Below are positions 24,460 to 34,095 of a DNA stretch of 34,095 bases, piece by piece; position 1 is the first letter of the stretch; each line of letters opens with the position of its first letter. The position numbers and the translations under genes were made by a program. The stretch lies in the NCBI GenBank assembly GCA_021827845.1, contig JAKAUB010000158.1, positions 1 through 34,095 on the forward strand, given 5' to 3'. This stretch comes from Acidobacteriota bacterium (GTDB lineage: Bacteria; Acidobacteriota; Terriglobia; Terriglobales; Acidobacteriaceae). Below the pieces are notes generated by a model that saw only the letters and a program-made list of their open reading frames with translations, ran no database searches and had not been told where the DNA came from.

Positions 24460-25341
24460 TTACTCGCGGATTCCTGTTGCGATATTCAGAAATTCCCGTG
24501 CTGCCCGCGTCAGCACGTGGTCGCGGTGGTGAATCAGGGCCAGGTCGCGGGCCAGGCGTACCCCCTCAAGCCGCACCGCCACCAACTTGCCGGCTTTTTC
24601 TTCGTCCACAAAGTTGATGCGCGGCAGAAAGCCCGCACCCATGCCGGCAACAATCAGCCGCTTCAGCAATTCTCCAGAGTCTACTTCCATCGCCAGTCGT
24701 GGTTGCAGATCGTGCATCTGGAAGATGCCTTCCAGCTGTTCGCGTTGCCGTCCTTGCTTCGGGAGCAGGAGCGGAAACTTCGCCAGCTCCTCGACGCGGA
24801 TCGTTGTACGCTGTGCCAGAGCATGGTCCGGCTGTACGGCCAGCACCAGCTCGTCTTTATGCACCGGAGCGATCGACAGGCGTTTATCTTTCAATGGAAG
24901 GGAGATAACGCCGAAGTCCACCTGCCGCTTGAGCACAGCTTCCAGGGTGCGTGCCCGCTCGGCGCGCACAATGCCGATGCCGACCTTAGGGCATTGCTTG
25001 CGGAACTCAGCAAAAATCGCAGGAAATACGTATAGGCAGGTTGTCTCGTTGGCGCTGATTGAGATGGCTCCGCGCGGCGCGCGATGCAGATCCGCGACGG
25101 TCATCTGGATATGGCTATAGCACTGCAGACAGTGCTCGGCGAACGGCTCAAACACACGCCCTGCCGCGGTTGTGCTCACCTTGCCGGATTTGCGGTCGAA
25201 CAGGCTGGCGCCCATCTCTTTTTCCAGCGAGCGGATCTGTGCAGAGATGGCCGGTTGTGTTACCCGCAGCTTTTCCGCTGCGCGGGAGAAGCTGCCCAGC
25301 TGACAAACTTCGAGAAACGTTCTTAGCTTTTCAAAGTCCAC
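24460..25341 (-). CDS. LysR family transcriptional regulator
   Basis: VDFEKLRTFLEVCQLGSFSRAAEKLRVTQPAISAQIRSLEKEMGASLFDRKSGKVSTTAAGRVF; GTG start at 25341. Confidence 0.93.
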   Translation of the reverse strand: MDFEKLRTFLEVCQLGSFSRAAEKLRVTQPAISAQIRSLEKEMGASLFDRKSGKVSTTAAGRVFEPFAEHCLQCYSHIQMTVADLHRAPRGAISISANETTCLYVFPAIFAEFRKQCPKVGIGIVRAERARTLEAVLKRQVDFGVISLPLKDKRLSIAPVHKDELVLAVQPDHALAQRTTIRVEELAKFPLLLPKQGRQREQLEGIFQMHDLQPRLAMEVDSGELLKRLIVAGMGAGFLPRINFVDEEKAGKLVAVRLEGVRLARDLALIHHRDHVLTRAAREFLNIATGIRE

Positions 25342-25381
25342 AAGTCTCGCCCCGTGGTTCAGTTTTGAAAGGATGCGACGA

Positions 25382-26071
25382 TTAAGCGGGCAGAGCGCCG
25401 GTATAAATCGCCATTCCCGCGACTGCATCGACGCCCATCGCGTCCAGCGTGTCAATCTCTTCCTGCGAACGGATTCCACCGGCGACGATCAACTGCCGCG
25501 TTGTTTCCTGGCGCAACGCGCGCGCGACGTCAATCGGAAATCCGGCCATCATGCCTTCACCGTCAATGTGGGTATAAAGAAATCCGCCACAGTACGGCTC
25601 CAACTCACGCATGGCCTGCGCGGGCGCCAGTGATATTTGCTCCTGCCATCCGCGCACGGCGACCTGGCCACCTTTTGCATCGACACTGAAAACCAGCGGG
25701 TCCAGGCCCACGCAGGCGGCCAGCTCGGCTGCAAAGGAGTGCCGGATGAGACCGTTGGCGCCGTTTGAGCCATCGAACAGCGATGAGCCAAGAATCACTT
25801 TGGAGGCGCCTGCGGCAAGCAAATCGCGCACGTCCTGCAACGTGCGGATACCCCCGCCAACTTGACATGGAAGTCTGCGCACGAACTGCTCGATCAGCCC
25901 TCGATTGTTTCCGGTTCTCTTGGCGGCATCCAGATCAATCAACTGAACGAGAGGGTAACCGGAAAAGCGATCGATCCAGTATTCGAAGTCATCGAAGTCC
26001 AGCGCCGGGCGTTCTCCCTGCACCAGTTGCACAATGCGGCCGCCCAAAAGATCGATGGAAGGAATCAGCAT
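25382..26071 (-). CDS. hisA: 1-(5-phosphoribosyl)-5-[(5-phosphoribosylamino)methylideneamino]imidazole-4-carboxamide isomerase
   Basis: MLIPSIDLLGGRIVQLVQGE; QVGGGIRTLQDVRDLLAAGASKVILGS; LIVAGGIRSQEEIDTLDAMGVDAVAGMAIYTG. Confidence 0.95.
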   Translation of the reverse strand: MLIPSIDLLGGRIVQLVQGERPALDFDDFEYWIDRFSGYPLVQLIDLDAAKRTGNNRGLIEQFVRRLPCQVGGGIRTLQDVRDLLAAGASKVILGSSLFDGSNGANGLIRHSFAAELAACVGLDPLVFSVDAKGGQVAVRGWQEQISLAPAQAMRELEPYCGGFLYTHIDGEGMMAGFPIDVARALRQETTRQLIVAGGIRSQEEIDTLDAMGVDAVAGMAIYTGALPA

Positions 26072-26111
26072 TCGGACCTCTTCTTCTATTGTGCCGTGTT
26101 TTCCGGATTTT

Positions 26112-26882
26112 TCAGCAAGGAAGTCGGACAGGAATTCCGTCGCTGGCGAGTTGCTGCTTCAAGGTGCGTGCATCGCTGATGCCGCGATGAAAGATGCTGG
26201 CAGCGAGCGCGGCATCGGCACGGCCGGCGGTAAAAACTTGCGTAAAGTGCCCGGCATTCCCACCGCCGCCGGATGCAATGACAGGAATGCTGACGGCATC
26301 GGCCACGGCCGCAGTCAGCGGGCAATCAAATCCTGCCTGCGTACCATCAGCGTCCATCGATGTCAGCAGAATCTCTCCGGCGCCGCGCTGTTCGGCTTCG
26401 CGTGCCCAATCCATTACGCGTCGGGCGGTGGCGCGACGCCCCCCACTGGAGAACACCTCCGCAAGTTCCGGCGCAGTTGGACCGCGGCGGGCATCAATCG
26501 CGACGACCACCGCCTGCGAACCGAAGCGCGCACCAATTTCGCTGATAACATCCGGCCGCCCCAACGCGGCGGAGTTGATGCTGACCTTGTCGGCGCCGGC
26601 ATCGAAAACCTGTCGCGCGTCGTCCAGGGAGCGGATTCCGCCGCCTACAGTAAGCGGAACAAAGATGCGTTCGGCAGCCCGGCGCACGCTCTCCAGCAGG
26701 ATGCCCCGTTCCTGATGCGTGGCCGTAATGTCGAGAAACACGATCTCATCGGCACCGCCGGCAGCGTGGCGAATGGCGAGCTCAGCGGGGTCGCCCGCGT
26801 CCATCAGATCAAGAAACTGGACCCCCTTCACCACGCGACCTGCATGCACATCCAGACAGGCAATAATGCGGCGTGTCAGCAT
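26112..26882 (-). CDS. hisF: Imidazole glycerol phosphate synthase subunit HisF
   Basis: [71 protein letters not shown]. Confidence 0.97.
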
Positions 26883-27484
26883 CGCGGCACCTCAAGAAAA
26901 TTCCGCAGAATCTGCAGGCCCGCTTCGCCGGACTTTTCCGGATGAAATTGTACGGCCATCCAGTTGTCGCGTTCCGCAGCAGCGGTAAATTGACGCCCAT
27001 AGTTCGTACTGGCAACCGTCGCCTCAATCATTGGGGCACTGTAGGAGTGTGTGAAGTAGACGAAGCATGGATCGGGAATATCGCACAGGATGCGCGAGGG
27101 GCGGACGCGCTCGATGGAATTCCAGCCGACATGGGGCGATTTGACGGTTCCGGGAAACCGGTCGCAGGTACCGGGAAACACGCTGAGTCCGTGCGTCTCC
27201 GGAGCTTCTGTACTGCCTTCAAACAACCATTGCAGACCCACGCAGATGCCAAGGAACGGGCTGCCCGCGCTGACTCGCTCGCGGATAGCATCTGCCATTC
27301 CGCTCTCATGGAGTACGCGCGTAGCAGAAAAATGACCGACCCCAGGCAGAACGATATGGGCTGCGAATCGCAAATCATCCGGAGTGGCAGCGATCCGGAC
27401 ATCGGCTCCGCAGGCGCGCAGAGCCTTAGTAACGGAGGGAATATTTCCGGCCTGATAGTCGATGACCGTCACAGAGGCGGGCAC
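26876..27484 (-). CDS. hisH: Imidazole glycerol phosphate synthase subunit HisH
   Basis: [62 protein letters not shown]. Confidence 0.97.
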
Positions 27485-27499
27485 GTAGATTCCTCCCGT

Positions 27500-28108
27500 T
27501 TACAAAAGGCCCTTGGTGCTGGGCAGCATGGATTTCAGTTGTTGGTCGCGCGAGCAGGCGAAGCGCAGCGCGCGCGCAAAGGCCTTGAACATTGCCTCCA
27601 CCTTGTGATGATTCGACCGGCCGTAGAGCACTTTGATGTGGACGTTGGCGCGAGCGCCGCGCGCAAACCCCTCAAAAAAATCCGCCAGCAACTCGGACTG
27701 CAGATCGCCGACGAGTCGCACGCGCAGTTGCGGGTCAATCACATGTGCCGCGCGGCCGCTTAGATCAATGGCGGCTGCCGCGAGTGTTTCATCCATCGGC
27801 ATTAGAAAATACCCAGCGCGCAGAATGCCGCGCTTGTCGCCGAGTGCCTGCGTGAACGCCTCGCCCAGCGCGATGCCGATATCTTCGACCGTGTGATGCT
27901 GATCGACGTCGAGGTCGCCATCACACTGCAGCCGGAGATCGAACGCGCCGTGGCGCGCAAACAGCTCCAGCATGTGATCGAGGAAGCGAATGCCGGTGTG
28001 GACGTCGTATTTGCCGGAGCCGTCAATAGTCAACGCCAGCGAAATCCGCGTCTCCGTGGTGTTGCGCTCCAGCCTGGCCGATCTCGTCTTTAGCGATTTG
28101 GCTGCCAT
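27500..28108 (-). CDS. hisB: Imidazoleglycerol-phosphate dehydratase (monofunctional)
   Basis: [43 protein letters not shown]; start placed at 28108 ([22 protein letters not shown]). Confidence 0.97.
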
Positions 28109-29184
28109 GCAATCTCCTTGAGCGATGCTTCCAATGCAGCAAGACCCGCGCGTGTATGTTCCACGGCTCCCAGCGTGATGCGCACGCAACCCGCGCAGCC
28201 CGGGTCGCTGCTGCGATCCCGTACCAGTACGCCGCGACAGCGCATGGCTTCCACCAGCTCACGATGCTTTGCGCCAATCTGCATCAGGATGAAGTTGGCG
28301 TGGCTGGGGTAAAAGAAAACTTCCATGCGCGTCAGCTTCTGCTGTGCGAGTGCAAGGCTTTGCGTCACCTGATCGGCGTACCAGCGGATGTAGTCTTCGT
28401 CGGCCAGCGCCTCCGGCAGGCATTCCAGCGCAATGGAATTCACGTTATAAGGCGAGCTTACTTTGCGGATGAACCGCATTGTTTGTGGGTGCGCCGCCAG
28501 CAGACCGATGCGCAGTCCGGCCAGGCCATAGGCTTTTGAAAATGTACGGGCGACGATAAGGTTTTCACGAGCCGCCGTATGGGCGAGAACGCTGTCGCCG
28601 TGAAAGTGAATGTACGCTTCATCGACCAACAGTGCGGTCTGCGGATGGGCTGCGGCGATCTCGAGCAGGAAATCGGAATCCGCAGTCGCGCCGGTCGGAT
28701 TATTCGGCGACGCCAGCATAACCAGACGTGTTCTGCTGTTGATCGCGGCTGCAAGGTCATCGTAGGGAAATTGCAGGTCTGGCTTTGCTTGTACGGAATG
28801 CACTGTAGCGCCGGTCATCTCCGCATACAGCCGGTACATGGAGAAGGTGGGCGTCACGACGATCACTTCATCGTCTGGTTCCAGGTAGGTTTCGCAAACC
28901 AGATGCAACGCCTCATCGACGCCGTTGGTAAGCAGCACGGCCTCCGGCTGCAGGCCAAAGTGATCGGCGACGATCCGCTCCACCGGTTCGCGCTCTGGAT
29001 ACCGCGTGAGCGACGCCGCTGCGACGCGCTGCAGGACGGCCTGAACGAGCGGGGAGGGTGCCAGCGTGTTCTCGTTAAAGTCCAGGCGCAGCCCTTCGCG
29101 TCCTGCCAGCGGCGGATGATACTCGTGCATGCGTTCAACAGCTGCGCGCGGACGCAGAGCCTGTTTCGTGGAGGCCTCTGTCAT
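28090..29184 (-). CDS. hisC: Histidinol-phosphate aminotransferase
   Basis: [60 protein letters not shown]. Confidence 0.95.
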
Positions 29185-30464
29185 CGTTTTCCTCCGGAAT
29201 TCCTGCTCGCCATGCGTACCGCAACACTTGCAGCATGTGCAACGAGACCTTCTGCAGTGGCGAGCGTCATGGTTGCTTCGCCCAGCGTAGCGAGTCCGGC
29301 CGGCGAGTACTCCTGCGTCGTCACGATCCGCAAAAAGTCGTACACGCTCAAACCGCCGCGCACGCGGGCCGCGCGGCCCGTCGGCAGAACGTGGTTTGGG
29401 CCGGAGACATAGTCGCCCATGCTCTGCGGCGTTGTGCCGCCGATGAAGATGGAACCTGCGTTGCGAATGTGCGCAAGATCGTCACGGTCGTCGACCGTGA
29501 GATGCTCCGCGGCAATCCGATTCGTCACAGTGAGGGTCTCTGCATGGTCTCGCGTAAGAAAAATGACGCCATGGGCAGCTAGCGACTGGCGGGCGATCGG
29601 ATTTTTTGCGGCCTGCCGGTCCGCCTCTTTCGCCGTGGCCTTTGCCAACGCCTGGTTGGCAGTAATCAGGATGGCCATGGCCTCCGGATCGTGTTCCGCC
29701 TGGGCGACAAGGTCCGCCGCGATCCAGGCTGGGTCGCCCGACTCACTGGCGACGGCAATCTCTGTCGGGCCGGCCATCATGTCGATGGCACAGTCAAAGG
29801 CGACGAGCCGTTTGGCTGTGGTGACGTAGAGATTCCCGGGTCCGACGATTTTTTCCACGCGAGGGATGGACGCTGTTCCATAGGCCAGCGCTGCGACCGC
29901 CTGTGCGCCGCCGATGCGGTACATCTCCTCCACGCCTGCCAGGTGCGCGGCTGCTAGCGTTTCGCGCGCGGGACGCGGAGAGACGACCACCACACGTTCG
30001 ACGCCAGCCACGCGAGCTGGGAGTGCAGTCATCAGCAGCGTGGAGGGCAGCGGATATCGGCCACCGGGCACGTAGCAGCCGACCGAGGCGAGTGGCAGGC
30101 AGCGCTGTCCAACGGTGCGCCCAGCAGCGGTTCGCGACCAGTTTTTCGGCATCTGCCACTGGGCAAACTGGCGGATGTTTTTTGCCGCTGTCTGCATGGC
30201 GCGCCGCAGGTCCGGCGGCGTCTGATCCCACGCAGCGGCCATCTCCTGCTTCGATACCTGGAGAGAACTCCCCGGCTCCAGCCCGTCGAAGCGCATGGCA
30301 TAGGTGCGCAGCGCCTTGTCGCCGCCACGCCGAATGCCGCTGAGGATGCGCCGAACTGAGGGCTCTAGGCGCGCAGTGGCTGCGCCGGAGCGATCTTCAA
30401 TCTGGCGCAGCCTGCGTTCTGCTTCTCGAGCGGATGGTCCGAATGTGCGAATGACTTTCATCAA
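29181..30464 (-). CDS. hisD: Histidinol dehydrogenase
   Basis: YVPGGRYPLPSTLLMTALPARVAGVERVVVVSP; GPGNLYVTTAKRLV; IDMMAGPTEIAV; AEHDPEA; GDYVSGPNHVLPTGRAAR. Confidence 0.97.
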   Translation of the reverse strand: MMKVIRTFGPSAREAERRLRQIEDRSGAATARLEPSVRRILSGIRRGGDKALRTYAMRFDGLEPGSSLQVSKQEMAAAWDQTPPDLRRAMQTAAKNIRQFAQWQMPKNWSRTAAGRTVGQRCLPLASVGCYVPGGRYPLPSTLLMTALPARVAGVERVVVVSPRPARETLAAAHLAGVEEMYRIGGAQAVAALAYGTASIPRVEKIVGPGNLYVTTAKRLVAFDCAIDMMAGPTEIAVASESGDPAWIAADLVAQAEHDPEAMAILITANQALAKATAKEADRQAAKNPIARQSLAAHGVIFLTRDHAETLTVTNRIAAEHLTVDDRDDLAHIRNAGSIFIGGTTPQSMGDYVSGPNHVLPTGRAARVRGGLSVYDFLRIVTTQEYSPAGLATLGEATMTLATAEGLVAHAASVAVRMASRNSGGKR

Positions 30465-30480
30465 CGTGGTGCCTCTTGCT

Positions 30481-31356
30481 TTACAGCACGATTTTGTTCA
30501 GCGGGTATTCGACGATGCCGGTGGCGTGCGCAGCTTTCAATCGGGGAATCACGTCGCGCACGGTTCGCTCATCGATGATGGTGTTGACAGCGGCCCATTC
30601 AGAATCGCTGAGCGTAGAGATCGTCGGTGAGTTCAACGCGGGCAGCACGGCCAGCACGGCAGCAAGATCGACGGAGCGCACATTCATCATCAGGCCAACT
30701 TGGCCCTGTGCGTCGATAGCTCCCTTCAGCATCATGGCAATGTTGCTGATCTTTTCCTTCTTCCACGGGTCAGCCCACGCGGCACAGTTGGCGATTAACT
30801 GCGTTTCACTCTCGAGAACGGTTTCGATAATGCGCAGGCGATTCGCCCGCAGAGAGCTGCCCGTCTCGGTCACTTCCACGATGGCATCGGCGAGCACCGG
30901 CGGTTTTACTTCCGTCGCGCCCCAGCTAAAGTCCACTTGCACGGGGATGTTCTTGCCGGCAAAGTAACGGCGGGTGGCTTCTACCAGCTCAGTGGCAATG
31001 ATCTTTCCGGCGAGATCTTCGGCGCGCTGATAGGGTGAGTCCTCCGGCACGGCCAGCACCCAGCGCACCTTCTGGCGGCTCTGCTTGGAGTACGTCAGGC
31101 TGGCGATGGTCTCAACCGCAAGGCCGCTTTCTGTCACCCAGTCATTGCCGGTCAGCCCCGCGTCCAACGCGCCATGGTTCACGTAGCGCGCCATCTCCTG
31201 CGCACGGATCAGCATGCATTCAATATCGGGATCGTCGATGCCGGGAAAGTAGGACCGGCCGTTAGCGAAGATGCGCCAGCCGGCGCGCTCAAATAAGGCA
31301 ATCGTTGCGTCCTGCAGACTGCCCTTTGGAATACCGAGACGAAGTTTGCGGCTCAT
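30481..31356 (-). CDS. hisG: ATP phosphoribosyltransferase (long form)
   Basis: 291 aa; [37 protein letters not shown]; extra C-terminal regulatory domain. Confidence 0.95.
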
Positions 31357-31745
31357 GCCTGCTCCTTGCTGCCGGCGGTCTGCGCGGCGTTCAGTGCGAT
31401 GGGACGAGTGAAGCAGCTGACAGTTCCTTCATGGCAGACGAGGCCGTCGCCTTCAACCACCACGCGGAACAGTAAAGTGTCCTGGTCGCAGTCGGTGCGT
31501 GCTTCTACGATGCGCAGCCGGTTGCCGCTGGTCTCGCCTTTCATCCAGAGTTTTTGCCGGGTGCGGCTCCAGAACGTGACAAAACCAGATTCGAGAGTTT
31601 TGCGGTAGCTCTCGGGATTCAGAAAGCCGACCATCAGCAGCTCGCCGGTGGCGGCGTCCTGCACAATGCCCGGAACCAGGCCGTCGAGCTTGGTGAAGTC
31701 GATTGCAGCGGTGCCGGATTCCGGCGATGAGACGGGTGCAGTCAT
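31353..31745 (-). CDS. hisI: Phosphoribosyl-AMP cyclohydrolase (monofunctional)
   Basis: [54 protein letters not shown]; no HisE domain fused. Confidence 0.96.
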
Positions 31746-31778: not shown

Positions 31779-31815
31779 AAAAACAAAAATCCCGCGGATG
31801 CGAGGCATCAGCGGG
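31779..31815 (-). terminator. Attenuator terminator (3:4 hairpin) of the his leader
   Basis: Minus strand CCCGC-T-GATGC-CTC-GCATC-C-GCGGG followed by ATTTTTGTTTTT: 10 bp with one 1x1 mismatch, 34 nt upstream of hisI. Confidence 0.88.
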
Positions 31816-31918
31816 CGGCTTTGGAACGGAGCTCCTGAAGTCTTTTGGAGAGATCAGGGATGGTTCGGTAGCGCTTCGCTGACACCGGTCGCGATGTGAT
31901 GGGTGTGCGAATGGTGTC
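31804..31918 (-). promoter_or_regulatory. Alternative pairing segments of the his attenuator (1:2 and 2:3)
   Basis: Region 2 GGUGUCAGCG (31877-31886) pairs fully with region 3 CGCUGAUGCC (31804-31813): 8 Watson-Crick + 2 G-U. Region 2 GGUGUC also pairs with region 1 GACACC (31913-31918) inside the His-codon run. Confidence 0.75.
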
Positions 31919-31931
31919 GGTGAAGCTGCAT
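31854..31931 (-). CDS. his operon leader peptide MQLHRHHSHTHHIATGVSEALPNHP
   Basis: Codons atg cag ctt cac cga cac cat tcg cac acc cat cac atc gcg acc ggt gtc agc gaa gcg cta ccg aac cat ccc tga; 7 His in 25 aa, directly upstream of the attenuator terminator and hisI. Confidence 0.85.
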   Translation of the reverse strand: MQLHRHHSHTHHIATGVSEALPNHP

Positions 31932-31937
31932 GAGAAA

Positions 31938-31965
31938 ACGATAGCAGAATCTCGGGCTGTGTCAA
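31938..31965 (-). promoter_or_regulatory. Candidate sigma-70-type promoter of the his operon
   Basis: Minus strand TTGACA (31965-31960)-N16-TATCGT (31943-31938); predicted start near 31931, i.e. at or next to the leader ATG. Confidence 0.65.
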
Positions 31966-32065: not shown

Positions 32066-34095
32066 CTACTGGCAGGCGCTTGCCGGGCTCATTGGGTCAG
32101 CATGGAGCGTCGGTTGATGCTCCCGCGTCAGCTCCTGATTGACAGCAGTGATCTTCGGCTGAACCTCGCCGTTCCACGCCTTCGTCACTGTTGCCAGATC
32201 CTTGCAGTAGTCCGTGAAAGCGGACTGCATGGCGGCTGTCGGCGCGCTGTCGGCGCTATCCACCAGCGTGGCTAGCGAGCCGAATTCTCCGTTCAGCAGG
32301 CCAAGGGAGGGCTTCGGTTTCGTCGGACTAAAGCCGCCGCCACCTTTTTTGCCTTCCACTTTCTTGACTGCTTCATCCAGCGCCTGCATCTGCTGTTTCA
32401 GTGCGGGCGAGGCATTCGGAGTCGCTGCCTGTTCTTTTTCGATTGCATCGTGCAGCGCTGCGGCGGCCTTGTGGTCGGCATAGGTCGCGCTGGTCATGGC
32501 GGCTGCTTTCCGTTCCAGGGCAAACTGTTGCTGGAGCGCAGCTGGCGTGACGGTGACGCGCGGGTCAATGGCGACTTGCAGTGGGCGCTGATACGTTTTG
32601 CCGTCCACGGTCAGCCGCACCTGGTACTCGCCGGGCAGAACCAGCGCGCCCTGCGGCTCCGGCTGCGTCTTGTGTTCCACGGCGGCGATGGGGTAGTGGT
32701 GTTGCAGGGAATCCGGCCGCGTGTACCGCAGATCCCAGAGAAACCGCTGCATGCCAGCGCCTTTGGACAGCGGGATGGGTTTGGCCAGCCAGTAATCCGG
32801 CACATGCGGCGGCGGCTCGGTGGAGGGCGGGATCGGCTGCGACGAGTACTCGCGCACCAACGCGCCCTTGCTGTCGTAAATCGCAAGCTTGATGTCGCCC
32901 TTCGGCGCGGATTGCAGATAGTAGTCGATCAGCGCGCCGTCCGGAGGATTGCTGGCGGCAGGCATCTCCGGCGGAAAGGGTGTGTCGCCGTTCTGATCGA
33001 ACTGCACGCGGAACGCCCGCGCCGGCTGGTAGAGGAAGACCTTGTGGCGCGCGGTGGCAGCGTCAATCTGTCGCAGCGGGCTTACGTCGTCCAGAATCCA
33101 GAACGCGCGGCCGTAGGTGGCCGCCACCAGATCATTCCCATGCACCTGCAGGTCGCGCACAGAAGCCACGGGCATGTTCAGCCGCAGCGGATTCCATTGC
33201 TTGCCCTGATCGAACGAGACCCAAGTGCCATTCTCCGTGCCCGCGTAGAGCAGGGTTTTGCGCACCGGGTCTTCGCGAACCACGCGGACAAAATCACCAT
33301 CGGGAATCCCTGCGTCTACGCGCGTCCACGTCTTGCCGTAATCCGCCGTGCGGAAGATGTACGCATGACGGTCATTCTCTTCATGGCGGTCCACGGAGAC
33401 GTAGGCCACTGCTGGGTCAAAATGTGATGCCTCCACCATGCTGATAATGGAGTACTGCGTCAGTCCTGGCGGCGTCACCGGCTGCCACTTCTTGCCGCCG
33501 TCGCGCGTTAACTGCACCAGACCGTTGGTCGTGCCCACCCAGATTTCCCCGGCCGCTTTTGGTGACGGAGAAAAGGCGTTGATGGCCGTGCGGTTCGGCA
33601 GCTTCAACGTCTCTTTCACTTCCTGCGTGCGTAATGCTTTCGTCTGGGAGGCTTCGGCCTTGTCCTGCTGCTTGCTTTGTTCGTTGCGTTCGGCATTGCC
33701 GGGCCGGCTCGTCAGGTCAGGACTGATCTTGGTCCAGGTGCGGCCCTGGTCGCGTGTCTCCAGCAGGAACTGCGTGCCTTCATAGAAGACGCTGGGATCC
33801 TGCGGAGAGAACGCCAGCGGTGGATTCATCGCCAGGCGGAAGTCACCGTCCCGATCGACGTTTGGCGAAATCGTCTGCACCTGCCGGTTGGAGCGATTCA
33901 CCAGTACCAGCCCGCGCGCCGGACCACCCGCAAACACCAGGTCAGGATTTTTAGGATCGGGGACAATGTAGCCAAACTCATAGGCAGCCACGGGATCCCA
34001 GTCGAGGAATGTAATTTCGCCGTAGTCGCCGCGGCTCAGGGTGCCAATGCTGCCGCTGTCCTGCTGCGTGCCATACACCCAGTAGGCAAAGCGGT
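32066..34095 (-). CDS. VPS10/sortilin-like BNR-repeat protein (5' truncated at window edge)
   Basis: Frame continues upstream of the track start (RFAYWVYGTQQDSGSIG...); repeated sialidase-type motifs (TRDQGRTWTKISPDLTSRPG, TADYGKTWTRVDAGIPDGDFVRVVREDP, GTENGTWVSFDQGKQWNPLRLNMPVASVRDLQVHGNDLVAATYGRAFWILDDV). Confidence 0.85.
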   Translation of the reverse strand, partial: RFAYWVYGTQQDSGSIGTLSRGDYGEITFLDWDPVAAYEFGYIVPDPKNPDLVFAGGPARGLVLVNRSNRQVQTISPNVDRDGDFRLAMNPPLAFSPQDPSVFYEGTQFLLETRDQGRTWTKISPDLTSRPGNAERNEQSKQQDKAEASQTKALRTQEVKETLKLPNRTAINAFSPSPKAAGEIWVGTTNGLVQLTRDGGKKWQPVTPPGLTQYSIISMVEASHFDPAVAYVSVDRHEENDRHAYIFRTADYGKTWTRVDAGIPDGDFVRVVREDPVRKTLLYAGTENGTWVSFDQGKQWNPLRLNMPVASVRDLQVHGNDLVAATYGRAFWILDDVSPLRQIDAATARHKVFLYQPARAFRVQFDQNGDTPFPPEMPAASNPPDGALIDYYLQSAPKGDIKLAIYDSKGALVREYSSQPIPPSTEPPPHVPDYWLAKPIPLSKGAGMQRFLWDLRYTRPDSLQHHYPIAAVEHKTQPEPQGALVLPGEYQVRLTVDGKTYQRPLQVAIDPRVTVTPAALQQQFALERKAAAMTSATYADHKAAAALHDAIEKEQAATPNASPALKQQMQALDEAVKKVEGKKGGGGFSPTKPKPSLGLLNGEFGSLATLVDSADSAPTAAMQSAFTDYCKDLATVTKAWNGEVQPKITAVNQELTREHQPTLHADPMSPASACQ

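Follow-up and report, generated by a model that had tools for sequence, protein, structure and literature searches.

The stretch of DNA analysed here (the window; 34,095 nucleotides in full) stems from a metagenome-assembled genome that is 82% complete and comprises 258 contigs; its closest named relatives are Acidobacteriaceae, Paracidobacterium, Terracidiphilus, Acidipila, Granulicella, Edaphobacter and Terriglobus among them. Searches with Pfam and NCBIfam models recovered the eight-gene his operon proposed in the initial annotation, with the gene order hisI-G-D-C-B-H-F-A (Table 1). A LysR-type regulator lies 3' of hisA on the same strand (24460-25479), with its longest ORF running into the end of hisA, and its annotated start needs checking. 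Upstream of hisI, a stretch of 320 nt extends to a co-oriented gene that ends at 32066 and encodes a BNR/sortilin-like protein according to domain searches. This intergenic stretch contains a single leader ORF: 25 codons that were initially read as a His-rich leader peptide. Translation returned the same peptide, in which six of the seven His residues are found at positions 4, 6, 7, 9, 11 and 12, and the gap of 108 nt between the leader stop (ending at 31854) and the hisI ATG (31745) was also reproduced. Among all 596 short ORFs (8-60 aa) of the whole window, this is the only one to reach 6 or more His in 12 residues, the next most His-rich being three ORFs with 4 His in 12.

Table 1. Features of the his leader region and operon in the window. 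Transcript positions (nt) are those of the leader transcript.
Feature	Position	Strand	Description	Basis
Promoter	31938..31965	(-)	-35 TTGACA at 31965-31960, 16-nt spacer, extended -10 TATCGT at 31943-31938	consensus scan
His leader peptide ORF	31854..31931	(-)	MQLHRHHSHTHHIATGVSEALPNHP, then stop	translation; His-rich ORF kept in relatives
Strand 1	31913..31926	(-)	nt 6-19, within the His codons; partner of strand 2 in free RNA	MFE structure
Strand 2	31877..31886	(-)	GGTGTCAGCG, nt 46-55, coding for the V-S tail of the peptide; antiterminator 5' arm	pairing, covariation
Strand 3	31804..31813	(-)	CGCTGATGCC, nt 119-128, common to the antiterminator and the terminator 5' arm	pairing, alignment
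Intrinsic terminator	31779..31815	(-)	CCCGCTGATGCCTCGCATCCGCGGG followed by ATTTTTGTTTTT	scan and fold
hisI	31353..31745	(-)	first structural gene	PF01502, 101.9 bits; NF000768, 130.6 bits (cut-off 126)
hisG, hisD, hisC, hisB, hisH, hisF, hisA	25382..31356	(-)	remaining operon genes	Pfam/NCBIfam

The attenuation reading of the initial annotation depends on His-rich short ORFs being present upstream of the his operons of relatives, and this was found in essentially every intact case: upstream of hisI in all 30 of the closest genomes, in 59 of 60 further family loci (the other one lies at a contig end), and at the corresponding site in 78 of 80 named Acidobacteriaceae loci (70 recovered by a strict scan and another 8 when longer frames were inspected), with contig ends leaving only 150 and 172 nt of upstream sequence at the remaining two. 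At least 6 His in 12 residues were reached in 66 of 80 real 500-nt regions upstream of hisI versus 0.025% of Markov-shuffled trials, in 1 of 132 real 500-nt blocks taken from further upstream and in none of 17 regions upstream of trpE or ilvB, so that chance does not account for the His-rich ORF. The His codons of the leaders are a mixture of CAT (630) and CAC (445), indicating that it is the residue that is conserved and not a DNA repeat. Many relatives display 5-6 consecutive His codons, and the interspersed arrangement in the window is partly a genus trait of the organism; the leader of this genus is also unusually poor in His when compared to the 7-9 residues present in most relatives, and one leader His codon is replaced by Cys in another member of the genus (L002, MQLHRHHSHTHCIATG...). 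Two metagenome-assembled genomes titled Verrucomicrobia and Rhodanobacteraceae (L183, L191) carry a hisI of the Acidobacteriaceae type together with a His leader, and here mistaken titles or mixed bins are the probable cause. Searching 700 nt upstream in eight family genomes revealed no convincing Trp-rich leader before trpE and no convincing Ile/Leu/Val-rich leader before ilvB (which may not head its operon), and hence attenuation is not an obvious general habit of the family.

Three elements that the initial annotation did not describe, namely a leaderless promoter, a terminator and an antiterminator, are present in the window and conserved. The promoter has a consensus score of 10/12 in the scan, with a TG preceding the -10 box, and this box stops six bases short of the leader ATG. 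Surveying 157 non-identical loci of relatives, we observed TTGAC at a distance of 20-45 nt on the 5' side of the leader ATG in 146 (1-5 in shifted controls), and a distance of 6-10 nt between the end of the -10 box and the ATG in 126 of 151; because of this placement the leader mRNA is predicted to be leaderless or nearly so, with 5' UTRs of 0-4 nt and, in the window, a putative transcription start on the A of the leader ATG (31931). SD-like 4-mers are located upstream of 19 of the 157 leader starts versus 96 of 141 candidate starts of hisI: a -10 box predicted within a few nt of the start codon, combined with the lack of an SD sequence, is the pattern of a leaderless mRNA. An alternative is that the leader has a longer 5' UTR and is driven by an undetected promoter further upstream. 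This could draw on the fact that the start site is a predicted and unmapped one, on the 6 of 157 loci where no promoter was detected and on other families in which a leader does have an SD sequence and a longer UTR (L214, see below), but the fixed position of the promoter relative to the leader ATG and the scarcity of SD-like motifs at leader starts speak against it, and we regard such an arrangement as unlikely.

Between the leader ORF and hisI lies an intrinsic terminator of the form CCCGC...GCGGG followed by a U-run, and an equivalent G+C-rich hairpin with a U-run is found at this place in relatives. The region folds far better than shuffled sequences (z -4.4). Strand 2, located inside the leader ORF, is able to pair over 10 bp with strand 3, the 5' arm of the terminator, and this antiterminator (2:3), to which the leader ORF contributes its 3' third and the terminator its 5' arm, and the terminator (3:4) are mutually exclusive. 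In an alignment of 73 sequences, 95.5% of cells in the outer stem of the terminator are paired, and the antiterminator reaches 85.6% versus 23-49% when slid by 1-3 columns, where the positions used in the slid control (as in the masked control below) were partly picked from the pairing itself. Two-sided, compensatory changes occur in 7 of 11 antiterminator alignment pairs, with 38 doubly changed cells versus 13.9 in shuffles; as the sequences are related, these shuffle counts are not equivalent to probabilities. RNAalifold applied to the whole alignment returned the terminator only, which is to be expected for structures that alternate. Across 148 leaders, the 2:3 pairing is stronger than after synonymous-codon resampling in 93% (median z -1.6); the hairpin formed by strands 1 and 2 is clear in the window sequence and lies only slightly above synonymous resampling family-wide (median z -0.3). 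With the RNA masked up to strand 2 to mimic a stalled ribosome, at positions that the pairing itself had in part suggested, the antiterminator is the predicted fold in 138 of these 148 leaders versus 84 when unmasked. When nt 1-40 or 1-44 are masked, the complete transcript of the window slightly favours the terminator over the antiterminator in thermodynamic terms, so that antitermination would need to rely on kinetics, as it does in other attenuators. With the last His codon of the window leader placed in the A site, the ribosome edge falls near nt 46, the start of strand 2, and in the median leader about 10 nt of strand 2 stay exposed under the same geometry.

A covariance model was built from the leader alignment and searched in 60 family genomes, 40 of which returned one strong match each (E<=3e-12) and no second strong copy. 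Some of these 40 genomes had fed the model and match by construction, which does not apply to the location and single copy of the match: all 40 strong matches share the strand of HisI and are found at most 250 nt upstream of it. hisI is likewise missing from most genomes that gave no strong match. In 15 of 17 tested family genomes without hisI, hisD is missing as well, with several of these genomes being 99-100% complete (G001, G004, G007, G010, G011, G014, G022, G023, G025, G042, G045, G049, G053, G060 and G061 lack both genes); the joint absence suggests repeated histidine auxotrophy in which the attenuator has also been lost.

The his leader of the window combines, in silico, a conserved His-rich ORF, a terminator ahead of the first gene, a covarying and mutually exclusive antiterminator and a geometry that suits ribosome stalling, and we consider it very probably to be a classical attenuator of his operon transcription, of the ribosome-mediated type, that acts on a leaderless, or nearly leaderless, leader-peptide mRNA. 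The initial annotation had proposed attenuation from the His codons, and the conservation of the ORF in relatives supports this proposal; the ORF, promoter geometry, terminator, covarying antiterminator and one strong copy per genome, always at hisI, are computed features, and translation of the leader, stalling of the ribosome, a histidine response and the precise start site are inferred. Transcription would begin at the leader ATG or within about 4 nt of it, and a ribosome would load on the 5'-terminal AUG unaided by a Shine-Dalgarno sequence. As long as charged tRNA-His is plentiful, this ribosome should clear the His codons, leaving strand 2 either covered or paired with strand 1; with strand 2 unavailable, the 3:4 terminator would form and transcription would halt before hisI. 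When tRNA-His is uncharged, the ribosome would stall on the His codons, its leading edge lying near nt 46, hiding strand 1 and leaving strand 2 (nt 46-55) free to pair with strand 3 before the terminator is completed, and RNA polymerase would then enter hisIGDCBHFA.

Other explanations for a His-rich ORF at this site place its action elsewhere. The leader ORF could control translation of hisI, via sequestration of the ribosome binding site or coupling, instead of transcription termination: attenuators of this type are known in other bacteria (PMC9413887), and SD-like motifs are frequent at the candidate starts of HisI. Across the family, however, a G+C-rich hairpin with a U-run separates leader and hisI, and the conserved pairing is aimed at the 5' arm of this terminator and not at the hisI start, which makes translational control very improbable. 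The abundance of His residues could equally be that of a functional, metal-binding small protein next to an incidental terminator, and leader peptides are able to act in trans, as reported for peTrpL (PMC7298713); yet the ORF is always tied to the his operon, its peptide tail follows the RNA pairing with the terminator, and His-rich ORFs do not occur ahead of trpE or ilvB. Given the terminator-directed covariation and the constant linkage to the his operon, we rejected the metal-binding peptide, to which we attach barely any probability.

Least probable of all, to the point of being negligible, is a tRNA-His T-box or other riboswitch accompanied by a His-rich ORF that arose by chance. Histidine T-boxes are known from Firmicutes (PMC9413887), but cmscan against Rfam 15 gave only two unrelated chance hits even at E<=10, with neither his_leader (RF00514) nor a T-box among them, and the His codons are conserved in relatives: both the Rfam search and the conserved ORF contradict a T-box.

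His leaders extend beyond the Acidobacteriaceae, with putative His-leader attenuators found in about 15 Acidobacteriota families (the sampled families carry code labels such as f2 and f14). Outside the Acidobacteriaceae, a His-rich leader precedes hisI in f2, f14, f23, f32, f43, f45 and f57, and precedes hisG, where this gene leads, in f5, f16, f17, f20, f22 (genera g143 and g197), f26 and, weakly, f27. Many other sampled families revealed no His-rich leader within 1 kb of the tested gene, which may not be the first of its operon. At one locus of family f24 (L227), a short frame containing HHHHHH lies about 1 kb upstream of hisG and is perhaps the leader of an upstream operon start.

Two His-rich ORFs in series precede hisG in all four f16 genomes (L214, L215, L300 and L301) and in seven genomes from the two f22 genera g143 and g197 (L217 and L293-L298). 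The scan detected a separate terminator after each tandem ORF at the f16 loci and at L297 and L298, and the second terminator only at the other five f22 loci; at L217, a G+C-rich hairpin follows the first ORF too. P-G-stop is the usual end of the second peptide; in L214 the sequence CCCGGGTGA of this peptide is exactly complementary to TCACCCGGG at the second terminator. The first leader of L214 exhibits a longer UTR and an SD-like GAGG, indicating that leaderlessness is not phylum-wide. It is reasonably likely that His-leader attenuation is a widespread form of his control in Acidobacteriota, which is leaderless in Acidobacteriaceae and, in at least two further families, duplicated into serial units ahead of hisG as a two-step amino-acid sensor. 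Tandem leaders, if this is true, could provide a sharper or graded switch, and these variants are a natural experiment on the effect of having two attenuators in series for a single amino acid.

The mechanism of attenuation itself is textbook; the acidobacterial RNA family is absent from Rfam 15 and is newly defined here, which gives the histidine operon a probable mode of regulation in a phylum that ranks among the most abundant in soil. A predicted leaderless leader peptide that persists across dozens of genera should moreover be useful for studies of initiation at 5'-terminal AUG codons and of how this initiation is coupled to transcription. His-leader attenuators have been reported for Proteobacteria and some Firmicutes (PMC9413887, PMC2965389), including predictions for the Bacillus cereus group, Peptostreptococcaceae and Erysipelotrichales (PMC9413887) and a hisZ/hisS* leader of bacilli (PMC2965389), with almost no acidobacterial attenuator having an assigned function (PMC2965389). 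We found no earlier report of a His leader from Acidobacteria in the open literature, the coverage of which was incomplete, such that a prior description is possible.

The window attenuator shares with hisL of E. coli and Salmonella (RF00514) a leader peptide with His codons, an alternative antiterminator and an intrinsic terminator before the his operon. It differs from hisL in lacking an Rfam match, in having hisI instead of hisG as first gene, in the absence of an SD sequence and a near-zero 5' UTR, in the direct pairing between a terminator arm and the 3' third of the leader ORF and in its interspersed His codons. The His attenuators of Firmicutes were likewise predicted outside Proteobacteria, by the same comparative logic, but belong to another phylum and show no visible sequence relation, and Acidobacteria do not appear in these reports (PMC9413887, PMC2965389). 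In regard to the start of the mRNA, the closest parallels are the leaderless trpL of Sinorhizobium meliloti (PMC7298713) and leuL, trpL and ilvL of Streptomyces lividans (PMC8079986), where attenuator mRNAs start at the start codon of the leader peptide; these concern another amino acid, operon and phylum, and their starts are RNA-backed, whereas the acidobacterial start is predicted only. The tandem loci of f16 and f22 resemble the Salmonella mgtCBR attenuators (PMC3641672) in that a single leader region holds two consecutive short ORFs, although mgtCBR is a Mg2+/virulence operon and both ORFs in f16 and f22 are His-rich and located before hisG.
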